Below are positions 5,011 through 37,391 of a stretch of DNA of 64,000 nucleotides, piece after piece. Position 1 is the stretch's first letter. Each line of letters starts with the position of its first letter. A program made the position numbers and the translations under genes. The notes below the pieces were generated by a model, which saw only the letters and a list, made by a program, of their open reading frames with translations, was not told where the DNA came from and made no database searches. This stretch comes from Aurantiacibacter poecillastricola (lineage in GTDB: Bacteria > Pseudomonadota > Alphaproteobacteria > Sphingomonadales > Sphingomonadaceae): the NCBI RefSeq assembly GCF_030730945.1, contig NZ_JAVAMS010000003.1, positions 1 to 64,000 on the forward strand, read 5' to 3'.

Positions 5011-5888
5011 CCGTGCCTCCGCCGGTAGATCGTCGGGCCTACAAGCTCGAGCAGGTCGAGCGCCTTGCCGGTCGCTCTTTCCGAATGGCCGATGTAGAGA
5101 TGCCCGCCGGGTCGCAGCTGGTTGACGAGACGCCAGACCAGCTGTTCCTTGGTCGCGTGATCGAAATAGATCATCACGTTGCGGCAGAAGATCACGTCGA
5201 ACAGGTTTGCGAAGGGCCAGCTGCCAAGGAGGTTGAGCAGGCGAAACCGCACGAGCGCGCGAAGATCTTCCGCTATTTCCGTCTTGTCGCCGACCGGCCG
5301 GGTCCAGCTATTGCGCAGCTCTTGCGGCACTGCTTCGATGGCCTTGCTGTCGTATCGGCCCTGAATTCCGGCGGCCACGGCATGTTCGGCAAGGTCGCTG
5401 GCAAGCGCAAGCACATTGCCCGAGGCAATCCGCCGCCCCTCGGCCCGGTCCTCTCCCAGGAGGACCATCATCAGTGTCCAGATTTCCTCGCCGCTGGAAC
5501 ATCCTGCCGACCACAGTCGCACGGCCAGGCCGGACCTTGATCGCTCGATCAGGTCGGGCCGGACTTCCTGGGCGAAGTGTGAGAAATGGTGTTCCTCGCG
5601 GTTGAAATAGGTGTGATTGGTGGTGAGCGCCGCGATCATGCTGGTCGACAGCGACTTGTCGCGTTCCACTTCCTCGAGAAAGGCTGCGAAGGTGGCGCAG
5701 CCGGTCTTGCGCAGCAGTGGAGCAAGCCGCGAATAGGCGAGCATCTTCTTGCCGTCCGACAACACGATGCCCGCCTCGCGCCGCACCATCGATGCGATGC
5801 GATCGAAATCCGCATGCGAGTAGACTTGCGGACTTACGCCCGGCACGATGGCCTCCTCGCCGGTCTTCGCGTTCATCACGGAGGCCAT
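5007..5888 (-). CDS. cheR: Chemotaxis protein methyltransferase CheR
   Basis: A 293-residue SAM-dependent methyltransferase that methylates glutamates on chemoreceptors. The start is set at the ATG at 5888, two bases after the cheA stop; a second ATG four codons in is possible. The N-terminal helical domain (about 15-85) ends in TTNHTYFNREEHHF, the characteristic CheR T-N-x-T-x-F-F/N-R-E segment. The SAM-binding part contains WSAGCSSGEEIWT, and a later DVIFCRNVMIYFD is the conserved C-R-N-V-x-I-Y-F motif. No C-terminal TPRs are present. It ends overlapping cheB. Confidence 0.96.
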   Translation of the reverse strand: MASVMNAKTGEEAIVPGVSPQVYSHADFDRIASMVRREAGIVLSDGKKMLAYSRLAPLLRKTGCATFAAFLEEVERDKSLSTSMIAALTTNHTYFNREEHHFSHFAQEVRPDLIERSRSGLAVRLWSAGCSSGEEIWTLMMVLLGEDRAEGRRIASGNVLALASDLAEHAVAAGIQGRYDSKAIEAVPQELRNSWTRPVGDKTEIAEDLRALVRFRLLNLLGSWPFANLFDVIFCRNVMIYFDHATKEQLVWRLVNQLRPGGHLYIGHSERATGKALDLLELVGPTIYRRRHG

Positions 5889-5890
5889 GA

Positions 5891-7963
5891 TCAGGCAGCA
5901 GCTTGTAGGCTGCTGGCGGCGCCAGCAGACTGGACGATTTGGTCGACGTCGACGATCAGGGCCACGCGTCCATTGCCAAGGATCGTGGCACCGGCCACTC
6001 CTTCGACGGAGCGGTAATGGGTGTCCAGGCTCTTGATGACGAACTGGCGCTGATCGCTGATGGCATCGACCAGCAGGGCAGCTTGCCCACACCGTTCGGT
6101 ATCGACGATGACGAGCACGCCGCGGCATGGGTCGTCCACGGCAGAGCCACCGGTAATGCCGGACAGGGGAAGGATCGGCACGAAGCGTCCGCGTACGTTG
6201 AGCATGAGGCGTTTGGCTCCCATGCCCTTGAGATCGCCCGGCTGCGGGCGCAGGCTTTCCACCACGTGGGCGAGCGGCACGACGAGCGACTGGTCGCCCA
6301 CCTGCACGATCATGCCATCGGAAATGGCCAGCGTCAGCGGCAGCGCGAGCACGAAGGCAGTGCCCTTTCCGGGCTCGGACTCGATGGAGATCCGGCCGCC
6401 TAGCTCCTTCACGTTCTGACGCACCACGTCCATCCCGACGCCGCGTCCCGAAACGCTCGAGACCTGTTCGGCAGTCGAGAATCCGGGAGCGAAGATCAGG
6501 TCGTTGATCTCGTCGGTCGAAAGGCGGGTGTCAGGAGCAACCAGTCCGTTAGCCACGGCCTTTGCCAGCACCTTGTCGGCGTCGATCCCGCGGCCGTCGT
6601 CGGCGATGCGGATCACGATGCGGCCCGCCTTCTGCTCGGCCGAAAGCGATAGCGTGCCTTCGGGATTCTTCCCTGCCGCCTGCCGCTGCGCCGCATCCTC
6701 GATACCGTGGTCCACGGCATTGCGGATGAGGTGGGTCAGCGGCTCGCTCAGCCGTTCGATCACGGTCTTGTCGAGTTCGGTCGTCTCGCCGCTGACTTCA
6801 AGCTTCACATGCTTGCCGGTCGTCCCGGCAAGTTCTCTCAGCAGGCGCGGAACGCGGCTGAAAACCGAGCCGATGGGCTGGGCGCGGAATGCCATGGCGT
6901 GTTCCTGGATATCGCGCACCAGCCCATCGAGCATCGCCAGTTCCTCGATATGGGCGAGGCCGTCATTGCTCAATCGCTGGGCCAGCATGGCCTGGGCGAT
7001 GACGAGTTCGCCGACACCGTCGATCAGCTTGTCCAGCTTGGCGAGATCCACGCGGATGGACTGGGTAGCGGCGGCACTGCGCGTTGCAGGAGGTTCGTTT
7101 GCCGGAGGGGAGGGTTCCTCGGCCCCTGCGGGTGCGGGGTTGCCGGCCTGCTCCCTGGCCGGCTCGGGCAAGCGCACCGGCGGGATGGCCTCGCCCGTCC
7201 CATAGGCAAGCGAACAGTCCTCTCCCACGAAATCGAAGATGTCATCCACCTGTTCCCGCGAAACCTGCGATGGCATGGCGAAGGTCCAGCCGAGATAGCC
7301 CTGTTCGATGTCGAGCTCCGCCAGGGGCGGGATGGCGGATGTGTCGCAAGCGATGCATGTCCCGCCAAGGGCGGCCAGTTCGCGCAGCCACAGCAGGGGC
7401 TCGCTGCCATTCTCCATGGCGCCGGCATGGGGGCGCAGGTGCAGCTGCCAATCGGACGCTGTGTCCGCCGGGTCTGCGCCTTCTACCTCGCCGCGCGGGG
7501 CGAGCAGGTCGTCCAGCATGGCGTCGAGATCGTCTTCGGGCGCCGCTTGCCCGGAGCCAGCCGCAGGGGGCGAGGGATCGGCCTGCGGCTCCGCCAGAGC
7601 CTCTTCCATGCGAGCGATGATCGCCGTGTCGTCCGGAGCAGGGCTGCCGCTGCGCGCCGCGTCCACATGATCGCGCAGGCAATCGAGCGCGAGCAGCAGC
7701 ATGTCGACGAGGTCTGGCGTCAGCGCGGTAGTGCCTGCACGCACCTGGGCCAGCAAGGTCTCGAAACAATGGGTGTAGGCCTGCAGGGCGGCATAACCGA
7801 AGGCCCCGGCACCGCCCTTGATCGAATGCACGGCGCGGAAGATGGCGTTGATCGTTTCGCCGTCCTGGGTGCCTGCTTTGCAAGCGTCCAGTCCGGCTTC
7901 GGCGGCTTCCAGCGACTCGTCGCATTCGACGAAGAAGATGTTCTGGATATCGTCGCTGTTCAT
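5891..7963 (-). CDS. cheA: Chemotaxis histidine kinase CheA
   Basis: A 690-residue cytoplasmic histidine kinase that signals to CheY and CheB. The start is the ATG at 7963 behind a strong AAGGAGAAGG site; it overlaps the stop of the upstream STAS gene (ATGA). Domains: P1/Hpt with phospho-His46 in RAVHSIKGGAGAFG; a long acidic, Ala/Pro-rich linker where a P2-like segment may lie (about 230-320); P3 dimerisation helices (about 345-410); HATPase with N-box LIRNAVDHGIED, G1 DDGRGID and G2 GRGVGMDVV; and a CheW-like P5 domain to the end. The long Pro/Ala linker is the only unusual part. Surrounding genes leave no doubt about the pathway. Confidence 0.97.
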   Translation of the reverse strand: MNSDDIQNIFFVECDESLEAAEAGLDACKAGTQDGETINAIFRAVHSIKGGAGAFGYAALQAYTHCFETLLAQVRAGTTALTPDLVDMLLLALDCLRDHVDAARSGSPAPDDTAIIARMEEALAEPQADPSPPAAGSGQAAPEDDLDAMLDDLLAPRGEVEGADPADTASDWQLHLRPHAGAMENGSEPLLWLRELAALGGTCIACDTSAIPPLAELDIEQGYLGWTFAMPSQVSREQVDDIFDFVGEDCSLAYGTGEAIPPVRLPEPAREQAGNPAPAGAEEPSPPANEPPATRSAAATQSIRVDLAKLDKLIDGVGELVIAQAMLAQRLSNDGLAHIEELAMLDGLVRDIQEHAMAFRAQPIGSVFSRVPRLLRELAGTTGKHVKLEVSGETTELDKTVIERLSEPLTHLIRNAVDHGIEDAAQRQAAGKNPEGTLSLSAEQKAGRIVIRIADDGRGIDADKVLAKAVANGLVAPDTRLSTDEINDLIFAPGFSTAEQVSSVSGRGVGMDVVRQNVKELGGRISIESEPGKGTAFVLALPLTLAISDGMIVQVGDQSLVVPLAHVVESLRPQPGDLKGMGAKRLMLNVRGRFVPILPLSGITGGSAVDDPCRGVLVIVDTERCGQAALLVDAISDQRQFVIKSLDTHYRSVEGVAGATILGNGRVALIVDVDQIVQSAGAASSLQAAA

Positions 7964-29424: not shown

Positions 29425-30783
29425 ATGCGCTACCTTCCGCTGAACGAAAGCGACCGCTCCGAAATGCTGGCCGCCATCGGCGCTGCCTCGATTGAAGAGC
29501 TGTTTGCTGACGTGCATCCCAGCGTCTTGCTCGACAAGCCCATAGAAGGCTTGCCGCTGCATGCCTCCGAAATGGCCGTGGAGCGCCACATGGAGGCGCT
29601 TGCCAGTCGCAACATGGCGGCCGGGCAGGGCCCGTTCTTCCTCGGCGCAGGGGCTTACCGACACCATGTGCCGGCGCTCGTCGACCACCTCATCCAGCGC
29701 GGCGAGTTCCTCACCGCCTACACGCCCTACCAGCCCGAAATCGCGCAGGGCACCTTGCAGATGCTGTTCGAATTCCAGTCGCAGGTAGCGCGCCTGTACG
29801 GATGCGAGATCGCCAACGCCTCGATGTACGATGGCTCGACCGCGACCTGGGAAGCGGTGACAATGGCACGGCGCATCACGAAGCGCGACAAGGCCTTGCT
29901 GGCAGACGGACTGCACCCGCATTACGCCGCCAATATCCGCACCATGGCCCGCTTCACCCGCGACCGGATCGTCCATTCCGCGCCCTCGCTGGACCCCGAC
30001 TGTGGCCTCGATGCCCTCGCGGCCTCTATCGACGAGGAAACGAGCTGTATCGTGGTGCAATATCCCGATGTGCTGGGTCGTCTGCCGGACCTCGCCGTTG
30101 TCGCAGAGGCGGCGCATGCGAAGGGCGCACTGCTGGTGGCGGTTGTCACCGAACCGGTGACGCTGGGCGCCCTGGCTACTCCCGGCGAACTCGGGGCTGA
30201 TATCGTGGTGGGCGAGGGGCAGTCGCTGGGCGTGGGGCTGCAGTTCGGTGGACCCTACCTTGGCCTCTTCGCCTGCCGCGAGAAGCACGTCCGGCACATG
30301 CCCGGCCGCCTGTGCGGCCAGACGACGGATGTCGAAGGGAAGCCCGGCTACGTCCTCACCCTGTCCACGCGCGAACAGCATATCCGCCGCGAGAAGGCGA
30401 CCAGCAATATCTGCACCAACTCCGGGCTCTGCGCGCTGGCCTTCTCCATCCACATGACCTTGCTGGGCGACAAGGGCCTCACGGCGCTGGCGGCGGAGAA
30501 CCACCGCCTCGCGATCATGGCTGCCGACAGGCTGGCAGCGCTCGATGGCGTGCGCCTGGTCAACGATACCTTCTTCAACGAATTCTGCATCGAATTGCCC
30601 GTGGATGCGCGGCCCGTGGTGCGCGAACTGGCCGAGGAAGGCGTGCTCGCCGGAGTTGCGCTCAGCCGTCTTTTCCCCGGCGCCCCGCAGCTCGCCTCGG
30701 GCCTGCTGGTAGCCGTCACCGAAACCACCACGCCGGAAGACATCGAAATGCTCGCGCGCGGCCTTGAGGAGAAACTGGCATGA
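29425..30783 (+). CDS. gcvPA: Glycine dehydrogenase (decarboxylating) subunit 1
   Basis: A 452-residue N-terminal half of the split P protein, with FFLGAGAYRHHVPA, AYTPYQPEIAQGTLQ, and GLQFGGPYLGLFACREKHVRHMPGR (read in pieces) as signatures. It forms the heterotetramer with GcvPB that decarboxylates glycine. Twenty-five bases separate it from gcvH, and its stop overlaps gcvPB (ATGA). The split two-subunit P protein is the usual form in sphingomonads. Confidence 0.96.
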   Translation: MRYLPLNESDRSEMLAAIGAASIEELFADVHPSVLLDKPIEGLPLHASEMAVERHMEALASRNMAAGQGPFFLGAGAYRHHVPALVDHLIQRGEFLTAYTPYQPEIAQGTLQMLFEFQSQVARLYGCEIANASMYDGSTATWEAVTMARRITKRDKALLADGLHPHYAANIRTMARFTRDRIVHSAPSLDPDCGLDALAASIDEETSCIVVQYPDVLGRLPDLAVVAEAAHAKGALLVAVVTEPVTLGALATPGELGADIVVGEGQSLGVGLQFGGPYLGLFACREKHVRHMPGRLCGQTTDVEGKPGYVLTLSTREQHIRREKATSNICTNSGLCALAFSIHMTLLGDKGLTALAAENHRLAIMAADRLAALDGVRLVNDTFFNEFCIELPVDARPVVRELAEEGVLAGVALSRLFPGAPQLASGLLVAVTETTTPEDIEMLARGLEEKLA

Positions 30784-32360
30784 ACGCGAACAGCTCCGGA
30801 TGGAGACCGGCCATGCCCGCCGATGAGGAAACGGTCTATCCGGCAGGGTCGACGCATACCGGCAATCGCGCACTCATGGTCGAGGAACCGCTGATCTTCG
30901 AGATCAGCAATTCCCTCAACTGCGGGGTCGACCTGCCAGAGCCCGAACCGGGCCGACCATCGCGGCTGGGCAATCTGGCGCGCGACAGGCAACTGGGCCT
31001 GCCCGGACTCTCGCAGCCCGAGGCGGTCAGGCACTACACGCGGCTGAGCCGCCAGAATTATGCAATCGACTGTGGCATTTTCCCCCTCGGAAGCTGCACG
31101 ATGAAGCACAATCCGCGCCTCAACGAGCAAGTTGCACGCCTCAAGGGCTTCGCAGACGTCCATCCGCTGCAGCCGGAAGGAAGCGTGCAGGGCGCCCTTG
31201 CCGTGATCGACGAGCTGGCGCACTGGCTGGTGACGCTCACCGGTATGCATTCGGTGGCGATGAGCCCCAAGGCAGGTGCGCATGGCGAGCTTTGCGGTAT
31301 CCTGTGTATCCGCGCGGCACTGGAAGCGCGCGGCGAAATGCGCGAGGTGGTTCTCGTCCCCGAGAGCGCGCACGGCACCAACCCCGCCACCGCGGCCTTT
31401 GCCGGCTATCGCGTCGAGACGATCCCCGCCACCGCCGATGGCAGGATAGACCTCGGTGCGCTGCGCCAGCGCCTCGGCACCGATGTCGCGGCGCTGATGA
31501 TCACCAACCCAAACACGTGCGGGTTGTTCGAGCGGGACATGGTCGCGATTTCGGAGGCCGTTCACGCGGTTGGCGGCTATGTCTATTGCGACGGCGCGAA
31601 CTTCAACGCCATCGTGGGACGGGTGCGACCGGGTGATCTTGGCGTGGATGCCATGCACATCAACTTGCACAAGACCTTCTCCACCCCGCATGGCGGCGGC
31701 GGGCCGGGATCGGGGCCGGTCGTCCTCTCGGAAGCCCTGGCGCCCTTCGCGCCCCTGCCCATCGTGCGACGTACAGCCGAGGGCACGCTGACCCTGATCG
31801 AGGAAGAAACCGCCGAAGCCGATGCGCCCGAAAGCTTCGGCCGGATGACGGCCTTTCATGGCCAGATGGGCATGTTCACCCGCGCGCTCTCCTACATGCT
31901 CAGCCACGGGGCGGACGGTTTGCGGCAGGTATCGGGTGATGCCGTGCTCAACGCGAATTACGTCCTGCGCTCACTGGAGGACGTGCTGGACGCGCCCTAT
32001 GCCCATGCGGGGCCTTGCATGCATGAAGCCCTGTTCAGCGATGCGAAGGTGGCCGAGGGGATCTCGACGCTCGACATCGCGAAGGGGCTGATCGACGAGG
32101 GCTTTCATCCCATGACCATGTATTTTCCGCTGGTCGTCCACGGTGCCATGCTGGTCGAGCCGACGGAGACGGAAAGCAAGGCTACGCTCGACCAGTTCAT
32201 AGCCGCCATGCGCAGCGTGGCCGGGCGCGCGAATGACGGGGACACGTCGCTGTTGCAGGCCCCGCTACATGCGCCCCGTCGCAGGCTCGACGAGACCGGA
32301 GCAGCGCGAAAGCCTGTCCTCGTCTGGTCGGAAGTAAGCCAATTCGAGCGAGTAGAGTAG
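30780..32360 (+). CDS. gcvPB: Glycine dehydrogenase (decarboxylating) subunit 2
   Basis: A 526-residue PLP enzyme. The PLP Lys is Lys298 in HINLHKTFSTPHGGGGPGSG. Other signatures are YPLGSCTMKHNPR-like FPLGSCTMKHNPR, HGTNPATAAFAG, ITNPNTCGLFE and YCDGANFNAIVG. It pairs with GcvPA and completes a full T-H-P glycine cleavage operon; lipoamide dehydrogenase (L protein) is not in the window. Confidence 0.97.
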   Translation: MNANSSGWRPAMPADEETVYPAGSTHTGNRALMVEEPLIFEISNSLNCGVDLPEPEPGRPSRLGNLARDRQLGLPGLSQPEAVRHYTRLSRQNYAIDCGIFPLGSCTMKHNPRLNEQVARLKGFADVHPLQPEGSVQGALAVIDELAHWLVTLTGMHSVAMSPKAGAHGELCGILCIRAALEARGEMREVVLVPESAHGTNPATAAFAGYRVETIPATADGRIDLGALRQRLGTDVAALMITNPNTCGLFERDMVAISEAVHAVGGYVYCDGANFNAIVGRVRPGDLGVDAMHINLHKTFSTPHGGGGPGSGPVVLSEALAPFAPLPIVRRTAEGTLTLIEEETAEADAPESFGRMTAFHGQMGMFTRALSYMLSHGADGLRQVSGDAVLNANYVLRSLEDVLDAPYAHAGPCMHEALFSDAKVAEGISTLDIAKGLIDEGFHPMTMYFPLVVHGAMLVEPTETESKATLDQFIAAMRSVAGRANDGDTSLLQAPLHAPRRRLDETGAARKPVLVWSEVSQFERVE

Positions 32361-32452: not shown

Positions 32453-32926
32453 TTGTCATGGCTTGCGGGGGCGCCAAACTTTTGGCACCTCCATCAGATG
32501 TTGACCTTGTTGATCTCCTTCATCCTGGTCGCTTCTACTATAGCCATACATTACGAAAGCCTGCGTTTCACTTCGAAGCGGCTCACCCACCTGAAGATCG
32601 CGCCGCGCTCGCGCATTGTTGTCATCCTGACTGCGGCGCTGGCTTCGCACCTCGTCCACGCACTCCTGTATGCACTGGCATTCCTGCTGCTGGAACCCAT
32701 CGGCGGTTTCGGGACAATCGGTGGTGAACGCGGGCACGATCTGGAAGATGCCTTCTATTTCTCGATAACCAGTTACACGACCCTTGGTATCGGAGACCTT
32801 TATCCCACCGGTGCGCTGCGTATCATAAGCGGGATCGAAGCATTGAGCGGCCTCGTCATGGTGGGTTGGACTGCATCCATGACGTATATTTACATGGAAA
32901 AATTCTGGAATATCAAGAACCGGTAG
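32453..32926 (+). CDS. Small potassium-channel-like membrane protein
   Basis: A 157-residue (or 142 from the ATG at 32498) inner-membrane protein. It has hydrophobic segments at about 17-33, 54-80 and 122-150, and a pore loop just before the last one containing SYTTLGIGDLYP. TTLGIGD (109-115) is a close variant of the K+ selectivity filter T-x-G-Y/F-G-D. It is an Ion_trans_2-type two-TM channel with an additional N-terminal helix, without a cytoplasmic regulatory domain. The TTG at 32453 is the upstream limit; no strong ribosome site decides between the two starts. It precedes the TIR/SLOG cassette by 116 bases in the same direction. Confidence 0.78.
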   Translation: MSWLAGAPNFWHLHQMLTLLISFILVASTIAIHYESLRFTSKRLTHLKIAPRSRIVVILTAALASHLVHALLYALAFLLLEPIGGFGTIGGERGHDLEDAFYFSITSYTTLGIGDLYPTGALRIISGIEALSGLVMVGWTASMTYIYMEKFWNIKNR

Positions 32927-33042: not shown

Positions 33043-35049
33043 GTGGCCGATTGGCGTTATGTAGCTTTCTTGAGCTATAGCCATCGCGACAAGCGGTGGG
33101 CCGACTGGCTGCATCGTGCGCTCGAAACCTATCGCCCGCCCAGGCATCTCCTTGGCCGCCTTTCGGAAACCGCATCGTCGCAAGGGCGTCTGCGGCCGAT
33201 ATTCCGGGATCGCGACGAGCTGGCTGCATCGGCGGATCTGGGGGAGCGGATCGAGAGAGCCCTGTCCGAGGCGGCCGCCCTGATAGTCCTATGTTCGCCC
33301 GCCGCGGCCCGATCGCGCTGGACCAACCAGGAAATCGCGACTTTCAAACGGATTCACCCGGACCGGCCCATCCTGGCCGCCATCATCGCTGGCGAGCCCT
33401 ATGCCAGTAACATGGAGGGCAGGGGGAACGAGGAGTGCTTCCCCGAAGCACTGCGGTTCGAGCTCGACTCCGACGGCACGCTCAGCGATCGCCGCGCCGA
33501 ACCCATAGCCGCCGACTTTCGCGAGCAGGGTGACGGCAGGCGTCTTGGCAAGCTCAAGCTGATCGCGGGACTGCTGAATGTCGGCCTCGACGATCTGGTC
33601 CAGCGCGACAACGCCCGGAGAACGCGCCGGCTGGCACTGGTTGCGGCGGCATCGGCCATCGGAATGGTCGGAACCAGCGCGCTGGCGCTGTACGCATTCG
33701 ACCAGCGCAACGAAGCCCGCGAACAGCGCGCGGAGGCTGACGGCCTCATCGAATACATGCTCACGGACTTGCGATCCGAGCTCGAACCGGTCGGCAGGCT
33801 CGATGTGCTTGACGGTGTGGGCCACCGGGCCATGCAGTACTACGCCAAGCAGAGCCTTGCGGACCTGACGGATACTGAATTAGGCCGAAGGGCGCGCGCC
33901 ACCCAGCTTGTGGCGGAGGTTCAGAATTTGCGCGGCGATAACGAGGCCGCATTCCCCGCCTTCCAGCAAAGCGCGCGTACCACGGCAGCGATCCTGGAAC
34001 GACGACCGAACGATCCAGAAGCGCTGTTCAACCATTCGCAAAGCGAGTTCTGGGTAGGATATCTCGCGTGGCAAACGGGGCGTATGGACGCCGCGCAGCG
34101 CCACTTCTCGAATTATCGCGATCTTGCCGAAAAACTGGTCGCCATGGAACCTGCGAATGACGAGTTCCGAGCGGAGCTCGGTCATGCGAACACCAACCTT
34201 GGCGTGCTTTCCCTCGAACGGGGCGAGAACCCGGAAGCGACCGAATTCTTTCGTCAGGCCGAATTGGTCTGGCGACGGCTGGGCGGCGACGCTCCAGACG
34301 GACCGCCCGAGCTCGCGCACAGCCTGGCGCAGGCGATTGCCTGGCAATCGGACGCTCGCCGGAAGGAAGGAGAACTGGCCGCGGCCCTCGATCTGAGAGA
34401 AGCGGAGAGGCGGATTTACGAGCGATTGCTGGCGCGGAGCGACGACAGCGGCGCGCGTGAGAGCTTGCTAGTGAACTCTCTGAGCCTTGCACGCATGGAG
34501 TTCGACCTCGGCAACATTGCGAGGGGGCGCGAAGCCGCGCGCGAGGCGTATCGACTCGGGGACGATTTGCGCCGACGCGATCCGACCAACGCCTTGTGGA
34601 AGGCATTTTCCGCTCGGGCCGGGATCGTGATGGCGGAAGGACACCTTCTCGCAAACAATCCGGCCGATGCGGCAACGGCCAATTCCGCGGCCTTGCAGAC
34701 TTGCAGGGAACTGGTGCGAGGCGATCCCGGTGTGAGGGAATGGAGGGACGATTGCCTCGCCATGGCACTCGCGCAGCAGGCCCTGATCGATCTATCTCGC
34801 GGCGATCGTGCGCAAGCTCAGTTGTTTGCCGAGCAGTTCCGGAGGGACTTCACACCGCTTGCCGAGAGCGCGAACAGCAGCGTGCTGGTTGCGGCGGGTC
34901 TCGTCAGCATGGTCGACGGCAGGGCGCCGCTCGATTGGCACGCCATTGGCTCATATCCCGATGCCAGGCTTTCCGCGATGGCGGATCGCGAGGGCGCATC
35001 CTTCAGTAAAACGGGCGCATATCCGATCGCACAACTCTTGAGATTTTAA
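33043..35049 (+). CDS. TIR-domain protein with transmembrane helix and TPR repeats
   Basis: A 668-residue protein starting at GTG behind AGGAGG. The N-terminal TIR domain (about 5-125) begins YVAFLSYSHRDKRWADWLH, has a RPIFRDRDELAASADLG loop and ends in SRWTNQEIATF, so Trp93 and the putative catalytic Glu97 (W-x-x-x-E) of NAD-cleaving TIRs are present. One membrane helix (about 197-217) follows. After it come helical TPR-like repeats (about 270-610), probably on the other side of the membrane. It belongs to the TIR-TM-TPR type seen in many environmental proteobacteria. The next gene starts 14 bases later. NADase or signalling activity and a defence role are inference; the domains are clear. 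Confidence 0.85.
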   Translation: MADWRYVAFLSYSHRDKRWADWLHRALETYRPPRHLLGRLSETASSQGRLRPIFRDRDELAASADLGERIERALSEAAALIVLCSPAAARSRWTNQEIATFKRIHPDRPILAAIIAGEPYASNMEGRGNEECFPEALRFELDSDGTLSDRRAEPIAADFREQGDGRRLGKLKLIAGLLNVGLDDLVQRDNARRTRRLALVAAASAIGMVGTSALALYAFDQRNEAREQRAEADGLIEYMLTDLRSELEPVGRLDVLDGVGHRAMQYYAKQSLADLTDTELGRRARATQLVAEVQNLRGDNEAAFPAFQQSARTTAAILERRPNDPEALFNHSQSEFWVGYLAWQTGRMDAAQRHFSNYRDLAEKLVAMEPANDEFRAELGHANTNLGVLSLERGENPEATEFFRQAELVWRRLGGDAPDGPPELAHSLAQAIAWQSDARRKEGELAAALDLREAERRIYERLLARSDDSGARESLLVNSLSLARMEFDLGNIARGREAAREAYRLGDDLRRRDPTNALWKAFSARAGIVMAEGHLLANNPADAATANSAALQTCRELVRGDPGVREWRDDCLAMALAQQALIDLSRGDRAQAQLFAEQFRRDFTPLAESANSSVLVAAGLVSMVDGRAPLDWHAIGSYPDARLSAMADREGASFSKTGAYPIAQLLRF

Positions 35050-35062
35050 GGGAGTAGAGGAA

Positions 35063-35554
35063 ATGACCAAGACCATGCAGGTGTTCGTGACCGTGACGGT
35101 CACCGGGCAATACGATCTCTCGGAGAATCCGACGATTTCAGCCGATTACAGCGCCGTCATCACTCCAGCCTTGCCCGATCCCAGCGTCGTCATTGTCGAT
35201 GCCGACGGCAATATCGACCTCGCAGCCCTTCCGGTCGTGAGTGGCTATGGGAACTCAGTAGAGATCGTATTCAAGCTCGCCGGTCAGGTCATCGACACAG
35301 GCGATAGCGACAAGCGGTGCCAGCCTGACTTCCCCCATGATTTAGACGACTGTATCTCGGTCTGGGAACAGGGACAAACGCAGTCCCCTGGCTTACCGTC
35401 GGGCTGGGGCGGGAGCCGGGTGAGTGACAACAAGATCAACATCACCGACCCGGACGACGATGACGGGCTGAAATTCAACTATCAGCTGACCGTCAAGCTT
35501 AACGGCAACAAATGCGCCATCGATCCCTCGATCCTCAACCGCGGGGCCAACTGA
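35063..35554 (+). CDS. Unrecognised beta-rich small protein of the TIR cassette
   Basis: A 163-residue acidic soluble protein, no signal peptide or membrane helix, behind GAGGAA. Alternating hydrophobic residues (VFVTVTVTGQYDL, SVVIVDADGNIDL, VEIVFKLAGQVI, LKFNYQLTVKL) predict a beta-sandwich. It has three cysteines and ends CAIDPSILNRGAN. I do not recognise a family with confidence; the two D-P motifs recall small uncharacterised beta proteins of the DP-EP type. Fourteen bases after the TIR gene and 31 before the SLOG gene, it is almost certainly co-expressed and may be a sensor, ligand-binding or immunity partner. Confidence 0.72.
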   Translation: MTKTMQVFVTVTVTGQYDLSENPTISADYSAVITPALPDPSVVIVDADGNIDLAALPVVSGYGNSVEIVFKLAGQVIDTGDSDKRCQPDFPHDLDDCISVWEQGQTQSPGLPSGWGGSRVSDNKINITDPDDDDGLKFNYQLTVKLNGNKCAIDPSILNRGAN

Positions 35555-35585
35555 GGTTCATGGGGGCGAATTTCCCGGCGATGAT

Positions 35586-37391
35586 GTGTCTCTGAGCAGC
35601 GAGCCCCTGCGCCCCCGCCTAGCGTTGCGGTTCGGCATAACCGGCCACCGCCCGCCGCGCCTGTCACCCGATCACCACGGGGCGGCACGCGCGGCGTGCG
35701 CGGAAATCTTCGCCGAAGCGAAGGAAGCCCTGCGCGCGATACACCGCCAGCATGCGGAGCTATTCGCCGAGGCGGAGCCGCTGGTCCGCCTCGTATCAGC
35801 TTTGGCATCCGGCGCGGATACGGTGGCGGCACAGGCGGCGCTGGGGGAAGGCATCGCCCTGTCGACCTGCCTTCCTTTCCCCGCCTCCGTCTATTCGCGC
35901 GATTTCTCGTCCAGCGACTGGACGATTGCCGAGAACCTGGCACGCAAGGCAGACGGGTCTCTCGCCATCACCGACTACGCACCCGGCGACGAAGCCGCCT
36001 ATGAGGCGGTCGGGCGGCTCGTGCTGGCGCAATCCGATATCCTGATCGCGATATGGGACGGAGCACCCGCGCGGGGGCGTGGCGGGACGACCGATGTCGT
36101 GGCGGAAGCGATCGGTCGGCACATCCCGGTGATCCATATCAACCCCGACGGCTCGCACGAACCGATCCTGCTCTGGAGCGGCCTGCATGACGAGATACCC
36201 GACCGTCCTTCGGTCGATGGCGTCAGCCGCGTACCGCTGAAGCAGGCGCTTCCTTCGCTGATCAATGCCCTTTGTGCTCCCCCGGAAGGCAGCGCAGAAG
36301 CATCCTTGCGCGAATTCCTGAATGGCCAGCGCGGCAAGTGGAGAGCGGGTCTTGCCTGGCCCCTGCTCCTTCTGGCCAGCAGCGCGCGGACCTGGTCGAA
36401 AACTCAATTCCGGGCGCCGGATGCCGAAGAGGCAGGGCGCTATTTCGCACCCCTTGTCGAGCCGTTTGCCAGGCTCGGCCATTTCGGCGAACGGCTGACA
36501 GGCTCGCTCGTCGCCCGGTTTGCGCAAGCCGATGCGGCTGCAAGTGCCGCAGCACTGCAATTCCGCAGCAGTTTCGTAACCAATTACTCCCTCGCTGCGC
36601 TCGCCGTCCTGCTGGCACTTTCGGGCATTCTCTGGCCTGCAGCGAAGGCATGGCTTATCACCGCCGAACTCCTCGTTATTGCGTTGATCATTGCAAATAC
36701 GCGGCGCGGCGTGAAATCGAACTTCCACCAGCTCTGGATAGACCGGCGGCACTTGGCAGAGCGCCTTCGCCTGCTGGGCCTTTCGGCGATGCTCGGGCGT
36801 TTGGCGCTGCGTGATGTGGAGGACGGGACGACCGAACCCGGATGGGTCACCTGGTATGCCCGGGCCTGCGCGCGCGAGCTCGAATTGCCGCCATGCGATT
36901 TCGACGCGGCCTATCTTGGCAAAGTGCGTGCTTCCGCCCTGAAGCTGATCGACGACCAGATCGCCTACCACGCGGCAAATGCGCATGTGATGGAACACAC
37001 CCATCATCGGCTGCACAGGGCGGGCGATTTGCTGTTCATGGGTACGATTGTCTTCTGTCTGATCTACCTCGTGGCAAAGTTCATGGCACCCGAGCCCGTC
37101 GTGATCGCCGGTGCCAGCCTGACTGCCATCGTCACCATCGCCACGGCATTCTTTCCTGCACTTGCTGCCGCGCTTTACGGCATTCGCATGCAGGGTGATT
37201 TCGCCGCGAACGGGGAGAGGTCGCGTGTTATCGCAGCGCGCCTGAAGAAGTTGCGCGCTTCGCTGGCTTTGGACGAACTGTCATATACGCGGATGGTCGA
37301 TCGTCTCCGCCGCCTGAACGAGATCATGCTGTCCGAAATCCACCAATGGCAGCAGCAATACGAGACGAGACCTCTCACGCTGCCGGGATGA
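35586..37391 (+). CDS. SLOG-domain protein with four transmembrane helices
   Basis: A 601-residue protein. The N-terminal Rossmann-like part (about 12-200) shows the SLOG nucleotide-ligand pattern: FGITGHRP (16-23), LVSALASGADTVAAQAAL (69-86), LPFPASVYSRDF, then SDILIAIWDGAPARGRGGTTDVV (150-172). After a helical linker, two pairs of membrane helices follow (about 333-352 with 355-371, and 481-499 with 504-533), separated by a soluble charged region and followed by a C-terminal helical tail (WIDRRHLAERLRLLGL and RLKKLRASL). The pairing with a SLATT/DUF4231-like membrane part is plausible. SLOG domains bind or process nucleotide signals, so with the TIR gene upstream a signal-to-membrane effector is a reasonable guess. 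Confidence 0.8.
   Translation: MSLSSEPLRPRLALRFGITGHRPPRLSPDHHGAARAACAEIFAEAKEALRAIHRQHAELFAEAEPLVRLVSALASGADTVAAQAALGEGIALSTCLPFPASVYSRDFSSSDWTIAENLARKADGSLAITDYAPGDEAAYEAVGRLVLAQSDILIAIWDGAPARGRGGTTDVVAEAIGRHIPVIHINPDGSHEPILLWSGLHDEIPDRPSVDGVSRVPLKQALPSLINALCAPPEGSAEASLREFLNGQRGKWRAGLAWPLLLLASSARTWSKTQFRAPDAEEAGRYFAPLVEPFARLGHFGERLTGSLVARFAQADAAASAAALQFRSSFVTNYSLAALAVLLALSGILWPAAKAWLITAELLVIALIIANTRRGVKSNFHQLWIDRRHLAERLRLLGLSAMLGRLALRDVEDGTTEPGWVTWYARACARELELPPCDFDAAYLGKVRASALKLIDDQIAYHAANAHVMEHTHHRLHRAGDLLFMGTIVFCLIYLVAKFMAPEPVVIAGASLTAIVTIATAFFPALAAALYGIRMQGDFAANGERSRVIAARLKKLRASLALDELSYTRMVDRLRRLNEIMLSEIHQWQQQYETRPLTLPG

Follow-up and report, generated by a model that had tools for sequence, protein, structure and literature searches.

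Gene content of the cassette

Within the 64,000-nucleotide stretch of Aurantiacibacter poecillastricola DNA that we analysed (the window), genes for a small channel, a TIR protein, a small beta-rich protein (the middle protein) and a SLOG membrane protein lie in a row, with the following features.

32453..32926, + strand, small Ion_trans_2 channel gene, here called ION (TTG open reading frame; Pfam PF07885)
32777..32797, + strand, T-T-L-G-I-G-D, selectivity-filter-like stretch of ION, read from the sequence
33043..35049, + strand, TIR-TM-TPR protein, 668 aa (Pfam TIR_2 and ThsB_TIR above cut-offs)
33319..33333, + strand, W93-x-x-x-E97, with the putative catalytic Glu of the TIR domain
33631..33687, + strand, membrane helix of the TIR protein, residues 197-215, with an Arg-rich flank N-terminal of the helix (hydropathy)
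35063..35554, + strand, middle protein, DP-EP-like beta sandwich, 163 aa
35522..35527, + strand, Asp154-Pro155 of the middle protein, corresponding to SO1698 Asp116-Pro117
35586..37391, + strand, SLOG-SLATT-SLATT membrane protein, 601 aa
35619..36281, + strand, SLOG domain, about residues 12-232
36576..36695, + strand, first membrane hairpin, residues 331-349 and 352-370 (hydropathy)
37029..37154, + strand, second membrane hairpin, residues 482-500 and 505-523 (hydropathy)

The last three genes are the same-strand open reading frames that a first-pass annotation had placed here, separated by gaps of 13 and 31 bases. The ION gene had been overlooked; it lies on the same strand, 116 bases upstream of the TIR gene, and scores 44.7 bits for Ion_trans_2 (Pfam cut-off 22.5). 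Closer homologues align only from codon 11-19 on, so that its translation probably begins at the ATG at 32498; the T-T-L-G-I-G-D stretch resembles a selectivity filter.

The domains assigned earlier to the two large proteins were largely borne out. The TIR domain is recognized by two Pfam models, TIR_2 at 48.3 bits (cut-off 28) and ThsB_TIR at 38.7 bits (cut-off 21.2), its W-x-x-x-E site is W93-x-x-x-E97, and hydropathy gives the claimed membrane segment as one helix. A strict pattern catches the WxxxE motif in 26 of the 36 TIR rows near SLOG and misses it in 10. The TPR assignment is weak in the window protein itself (TPR_12, E 0.08) and clearer in relatives, where TPR_2 reaches 1e-6 (locus L019) and 2e-7 (L088). 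By the positive-inside rule, the Arg-rich flank before the helix suggests that the TPR region is outside, facing the periplasm. The third protein does have a SLOG fold (the Rossmann fold of the YpsA-like SLOG superfamily) and four hydrophobic helices. SLATT_1 is matched in 24 of 28 members of its family at E <= 0.1 (best 2e-8); the window protein's own SLATT match is, however, weak (SLATT_4, E 0.06, 13.2 bits against a cut-off of 55), which counts against the explanation that we favor below.

Genomic setting

Both flanks of the cassette have a housekeeping look: upstream lie glycine-cleavage genes (identified by eye), and downstream lie genes for an AraC-type regulator and a 4-hydroxybenzoate 3-monooxygenase (619.6 bits, cut-off 538.7). 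The glycine-cleavage gene at 30780-32360 of the window is duplicated in the genome, with a second copy at G000:C1:64206-65762 (78% identity). When 1.5 kb of flank was compared, ION and TIR were absent beside the upstream glycine-cleavage gene at all 22 other loci, which comprise 21 from 20 genomes of the same genus and the second copy in this genome; one of these loci (L120) ends before the gene's end. Close SLOG homologues were found in none of 36 same-genus genomes, nine of which have distant ones only (28-35% identity), and relatives of 68-71% identity are present in Qipengyuania and Erythrobacter genomes. Because the glycine-cleavage loci are without ION and TIR, and because SLOG is patchy in the genus with closer relatives elsewhere, we regard the cassette as accessory in this genome.

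Recurrence of the gene association

Scanning genome contigs turned up 52 loci, of which 51 have a SLOG open reading frame; neighbors were counted at the 43 that are flanked by 2 kb or more on either side. A TIR gene stands within 2 kb of SLOG-SLATT at 31 of these 43 loci (12 are without one), ION within 2.7 kb at 8, and one or the other at 37, leaving 6 with neither; among the 31 is L057, whose TIR scores just E 0.009 by the neighbor-built profile. Because the first TIR profile had been built from SLOG neighbors, the count was rechecked with Pfam TIR_2, which matched 77 times (74 above cut-off) across 30 of these genomes. TIR_2 lies within 4 kb of SLOG in 24 of the 30 genomes, as compared with about 0.25 expected (an expectation reckoned for 2 kb), and in genomes with a single TIR_2 match that match is the SLOG neighbor in 11 of 11. 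Independent cases are fewer than these counts, since some of the loci are closely related (Qipengyuania contributes four with a single arrangement, Lysobacter two). The first-pass annotation had called for a search for co-occurrence in other genomes, and the families do adjoin elsewhere far beyond chance.

The three-gene association extends across Alpha- and Gammaproteobacteria. TIR and middle genes stand beside SLOG at L019, where the middle gene is a divergent relative, and at L026, L027, L028, L030 and L039, whose hosts are Lysobacter, a gammaproteobacterial MAG, Porphyrobacter and Croceibacterium. A profile search of 396 genomes of the order found the middle gene in 16, with a TIR-TPR gene directly beside it in all 15 loci examined. 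All 16 of these genomes have a SLOG-SLATT match, as compared with 92 of 396 overall (Fisher 2e-11, kinship ignored); some of the 92 matches cover only part of the profile, and full-length matches number 13 of 16 versus 45 of 396. Sets of all four genes are found in the window and at L019, L084, L086 and L088. Their order is TIR-middle-SLOG with ION convergent at L019 and L086, TIR-middle-ION with SLOG convergent at L084, and ION-SLOG-TIR-middle on one strand and nearly abutting at L088.

ION tends to lie near SLOG-SLATT as well. The 396 genomes contain 38 ION copies with an identity of 39% or more, and 24 of them have SLOG-SLATT no farther than 2.7 kb away; for 18 of these the distance is 80 bases or less, with the two genes on either the same strand or opposite strands. 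Of the 23 weaker ION rows kept, 1 falls within the 2.7 kb. ION is not exclusive to SLOG, since 8 of the 37 genomes with an ION of at least 39% identity have no SLOG match.

The middle protein resembles the DP-EP family

The middle protein had been described as beta-rich and without a family. Searches of Pfam and NCBIfam (to E 1) and of PADLOC match it to no family, and its predicted structure is all-beta (mean pLDDT 91), with the beta-sandwich fold of SO1698 from Shewanella oneidensis (DP-EP, PF08985). The Asp-Pro near the C-terminus is invariant in 24 of 24 rows of the middle-protein family, and hhalign aligns the middle-protein and DP-EP tails with a probability of 57 over 47 columns. The middle protein thus has in common with DP-EP its fold, the terminal Asp-Pro and a position beside the same TPR region. 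It differs in lying below Pfam detection (the PF08985 profile leaves the window protein unmatched and matches 2 of 24 relatives, best E 0.02), in being about 40 residues longer, and in having lost the Ser two residues before Asp-Pro; this Ser is present in 14 of 14 DP-EP rows, whereas the window protein has Ala152 and just 3 of 24 relatives keep the Ser, which counts against our explanation. As a separate observation, the penicillin-binding-protein C-terminal family BiPBP_C is matched in 4 of the 24 relatives (best 8.5e-5), better than DP-EP.

DP-EP is rare, being found in 1 of 160 genomes of the phylum and in 12 of 133 genomes in the order of that match. In all 12, the DP-EP gene is directly 3' of a TPR gene of 1051-1141 aa whose TPR matches its counterpart in the window's TIR protein (2.5e-28 to 5.5e-18). 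The partner at L099, the one checked with Pfam, carries Trans_reg_C, nSTAND1 and TPR, and the other eleven start alike by eye. Where the middle protein is paired with a TIR protein, DP-EP at L099 is thus paired with a wHTH-nSTAND protein. From the neighbors of the DP-EP and middle genes, we conclude that one small-protein fold goes with one and the same TPR region, which is joined to either of two output types. In a comparison of 20 loci, middle-protein distances correlate with TPR distances (r 0.81; partial Mantel r 0.65 given TIR), whereas the partial r between the middle protein and the TIR part given TPR is 0.03; the distances are plain ones and partly saturated, with kinship ignored. An earlier suggestion that the middle protein could be a sensor or immunity factor survives in part: its most fitting role is that of a DP-EP-like companion to the TPR region, probably helping the sensor part of the TIR protein, and not that of an immunity factor. 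Against our reading, the TPR region is predicted to be periplasmic and the window middle protein has no signal peptide apparent by eye, which makes a meeting of the two hard to explain.

Two divergent middle or DP-EP copies stand beside a single TPR gene at L092 (6831-8172), L095 (6962-7920) and L138 (5312-6233), which suggests diversification of this partner. The L138 copies form a tandem pair after the TPR gene, and one of them (5727-6233) opens by eye with a signal-peptide-like stretch, hinting at a periplasmic location.

A proposed signalling mechanism and its alternatives

The analysis shows the domains, the folds as predicted, a gene association that is conserved, and a middle protein that pairs with the TPR region. 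Building on these results, we propose, with a probability of about 0.5, that the cassette is a membrane-linked nucleotide-signalling conflict system. The TPR region and its DP-EP-like partner would sense a trigger, or keep the TIR domain off until one arrives. The TIR domain, judging from its family and its Glu, may then cluster and turn NAD+ into a signal of the ADP-ribose type. In the third protein, SLOG would bind this signal and rearrange the four membrane helices, which form two SLATT-type hairpins. The membrane could thereby be opened or perturbed, by this protein alone or with the adjacent small channel, and the affected cell would become dormant or die. The most economical reading is the one that the first-pass annotation had proposed, in which TIR makes the signal and the SLOG membrane protein reads it.

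ThsA uses its SLOG to read a cADPR isomer made by TIR, 3'cADPR (PMC11204291), and the TM-macro effectors of Thoeris perturb membranes (PMC11204291, PMC12948488). SLATT has been predicted to be an ADPr-regulated membrane effector alongside TIR in phages (PMC9503650) and is treated as a pore-forming effector (PMC7159879). The SLOG of TRPM proteins binds ADP-ribose, and for bacteria it is reported that no TRP channel domain was found (PMC13143021).

The cassette might instead serve envelope-stress or ion-homeostasis signalling and not immunity, with the TPR region sensing the envelope, TIR signalling, and SLOG-SLATT and ION tuning ion flow without killing. We consider this unlikely, though it accounts for several observations. 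ION adjoins SLOG also where no TIR is nearby (L013, L018, L021, L022, L023 and L038), and the neighborhood of the window is housekeeping. As for known defence genes nearby, by raw count few of 89 flanking proteins from 25 loci match PADLOC, which may also count against a conflict system: 19 models were matched with one member each, 17 of them reverse-transcriptase-type by name, and one or few proteins may account for these 17. However, the patchy spread in the genus described above speaks against it, and a SLOG-SLATT gene beside a TIR-nSTAND-WD40 protein at L057 (the TIR by eye and weak score) and another on the viral contig L146 fit conflict.

Still more doubtful is a split into two systems, TIR with the DP-EP-like protein and SLOG-SLATT with ION, that are independent of each other and simply occur in company. 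SLOG lies within 3 kb of the middle gene in 4 of the 16 middle-gene genomes and far off or on another contig in 12, and C2, one of two unlike TIR families found beside SLOG, occurs with no SLOG at all in 61 of 110 genomes; both results count against a single system. However, SLOG is present in every middle-gene genome, both unlike TIR types (C1 and C2) occupy the place beside it, and the four-gene orders are interleaved. Very improbable, finally, is a TIR that acts as a non-enzymatic scaffold with the middle protein as a structural ligand and no diffusible signal: TIR domains are canonically scaffolds (PMC8494770), but the window and 26 of 36 TIR rows carry the WxxxE Glu, and the SLOG with which TIR is paired is of the YpsA type, to whose clade cADPR sensors belong (PMC9503650).

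Relation to known systems

We place the cassette with the TIR/SLOG/SLATT nucleotide-signalling systems, as a variant arrangement; these domains are treated together in the literature consulted, which included PMC9503650, PMC7159879, PMC11204291, PMC13143021, PMC11676413 and PMC12948488. As in Thoeris type I (ThsB TIR and ThsA SIR2-SLOG), a TIR protein with a putative catalytic Glu stands beside a SLOG-bearing receiver. SIR2, however, is unmatched in the four gene products (Pfam, NCBIfam), the receiver has four membrane helices, the TIR sits on a TM-TPR protein, and there are extra DP-EP-like and channel genes. Thoeris type II (ThsB and ThsA TM-macro; PMC11204291, PMC12948488) likewise combines TIR with a nucleotide-binding membrane effector, but macro is unmatched in the four gene products (Pfam, NCBIfam); SLOG replaces it, with two hairpins and extra genes. 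The TIR and SLATT neighborhoods in the sections drawn on of PMC9503650 and PMC7159879 likewise have TIR, SLOG and SLATT as parts of nucleotide-centered conflict systems, to which the cassette adds the TIR-TM-TPR protein with its DP-EP-like partner and the Ion_trans_2 channel. No TIR-TPR/DP-EP-like/SLOG-SLATT/ion-channel unit appeared in the literature searched, which was seen in part and mostly did not include subscription journals, and an earlier description is possible.

The cassette offers a concrete four-gene unit in which a SLOG membrane receiver and an ion channel can be tested for their response to a TIR-made signal. It also makes the role of DP-EP testable, because this rare family gains a partner that recurs, namely the TPR region found in signalling proteins. 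In the TRPM2 ADP-ribose-gated channel, a SLOG ligand domain (MHR1/2) is coupled to membrane ion flow (PMC13143021), whereas SLOG and channel are separate genes in the cassette. As something of a long shot, the cassette might join in separate genes the logic of Toll-like receptors (sensor repeats, membrane, TIR) and that of TRPM2 (SLOG gating ion flow): TIR would make the ADP-ribose signal, SLOG-SLATT and the small channel would form a nucleotide-gated ion channel, and TPR with a DP-EP-type protein would be a general plug-in sensor, used also by wHTH-nSTAND regulators. If the channel reading is true, bacteria would have a counterpart of the ADP-ribose-gated TRPM channels, made from different pores.

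Other observations near TIR and SLOG-SLATT genes

A protein of 359-404 aa (cluster C3) adjoins the C2 TIR gene at L012, L024, L031, L047, L048 and L054, and that of L012 has a PEP-CTERM motif. A dinucleotide-binding, oxidoreductase-like gene (cluster C4, by eye) recurs near SLOG-SLATT at L013, L015, L016, L017, L022 and L033 and may reflect shared synteny. The SLOG-SLATT-like gene of L146 (5959-8085) comes directly behind genes that by eye look tail-type and amidase-like, and it is possible phage cargo. A SLOG-like match also falls on the Bacillus subtilis plasmid NZ_KX711616.1 (82838-83290), under the annotations hypothetical protein and caspase family protein.
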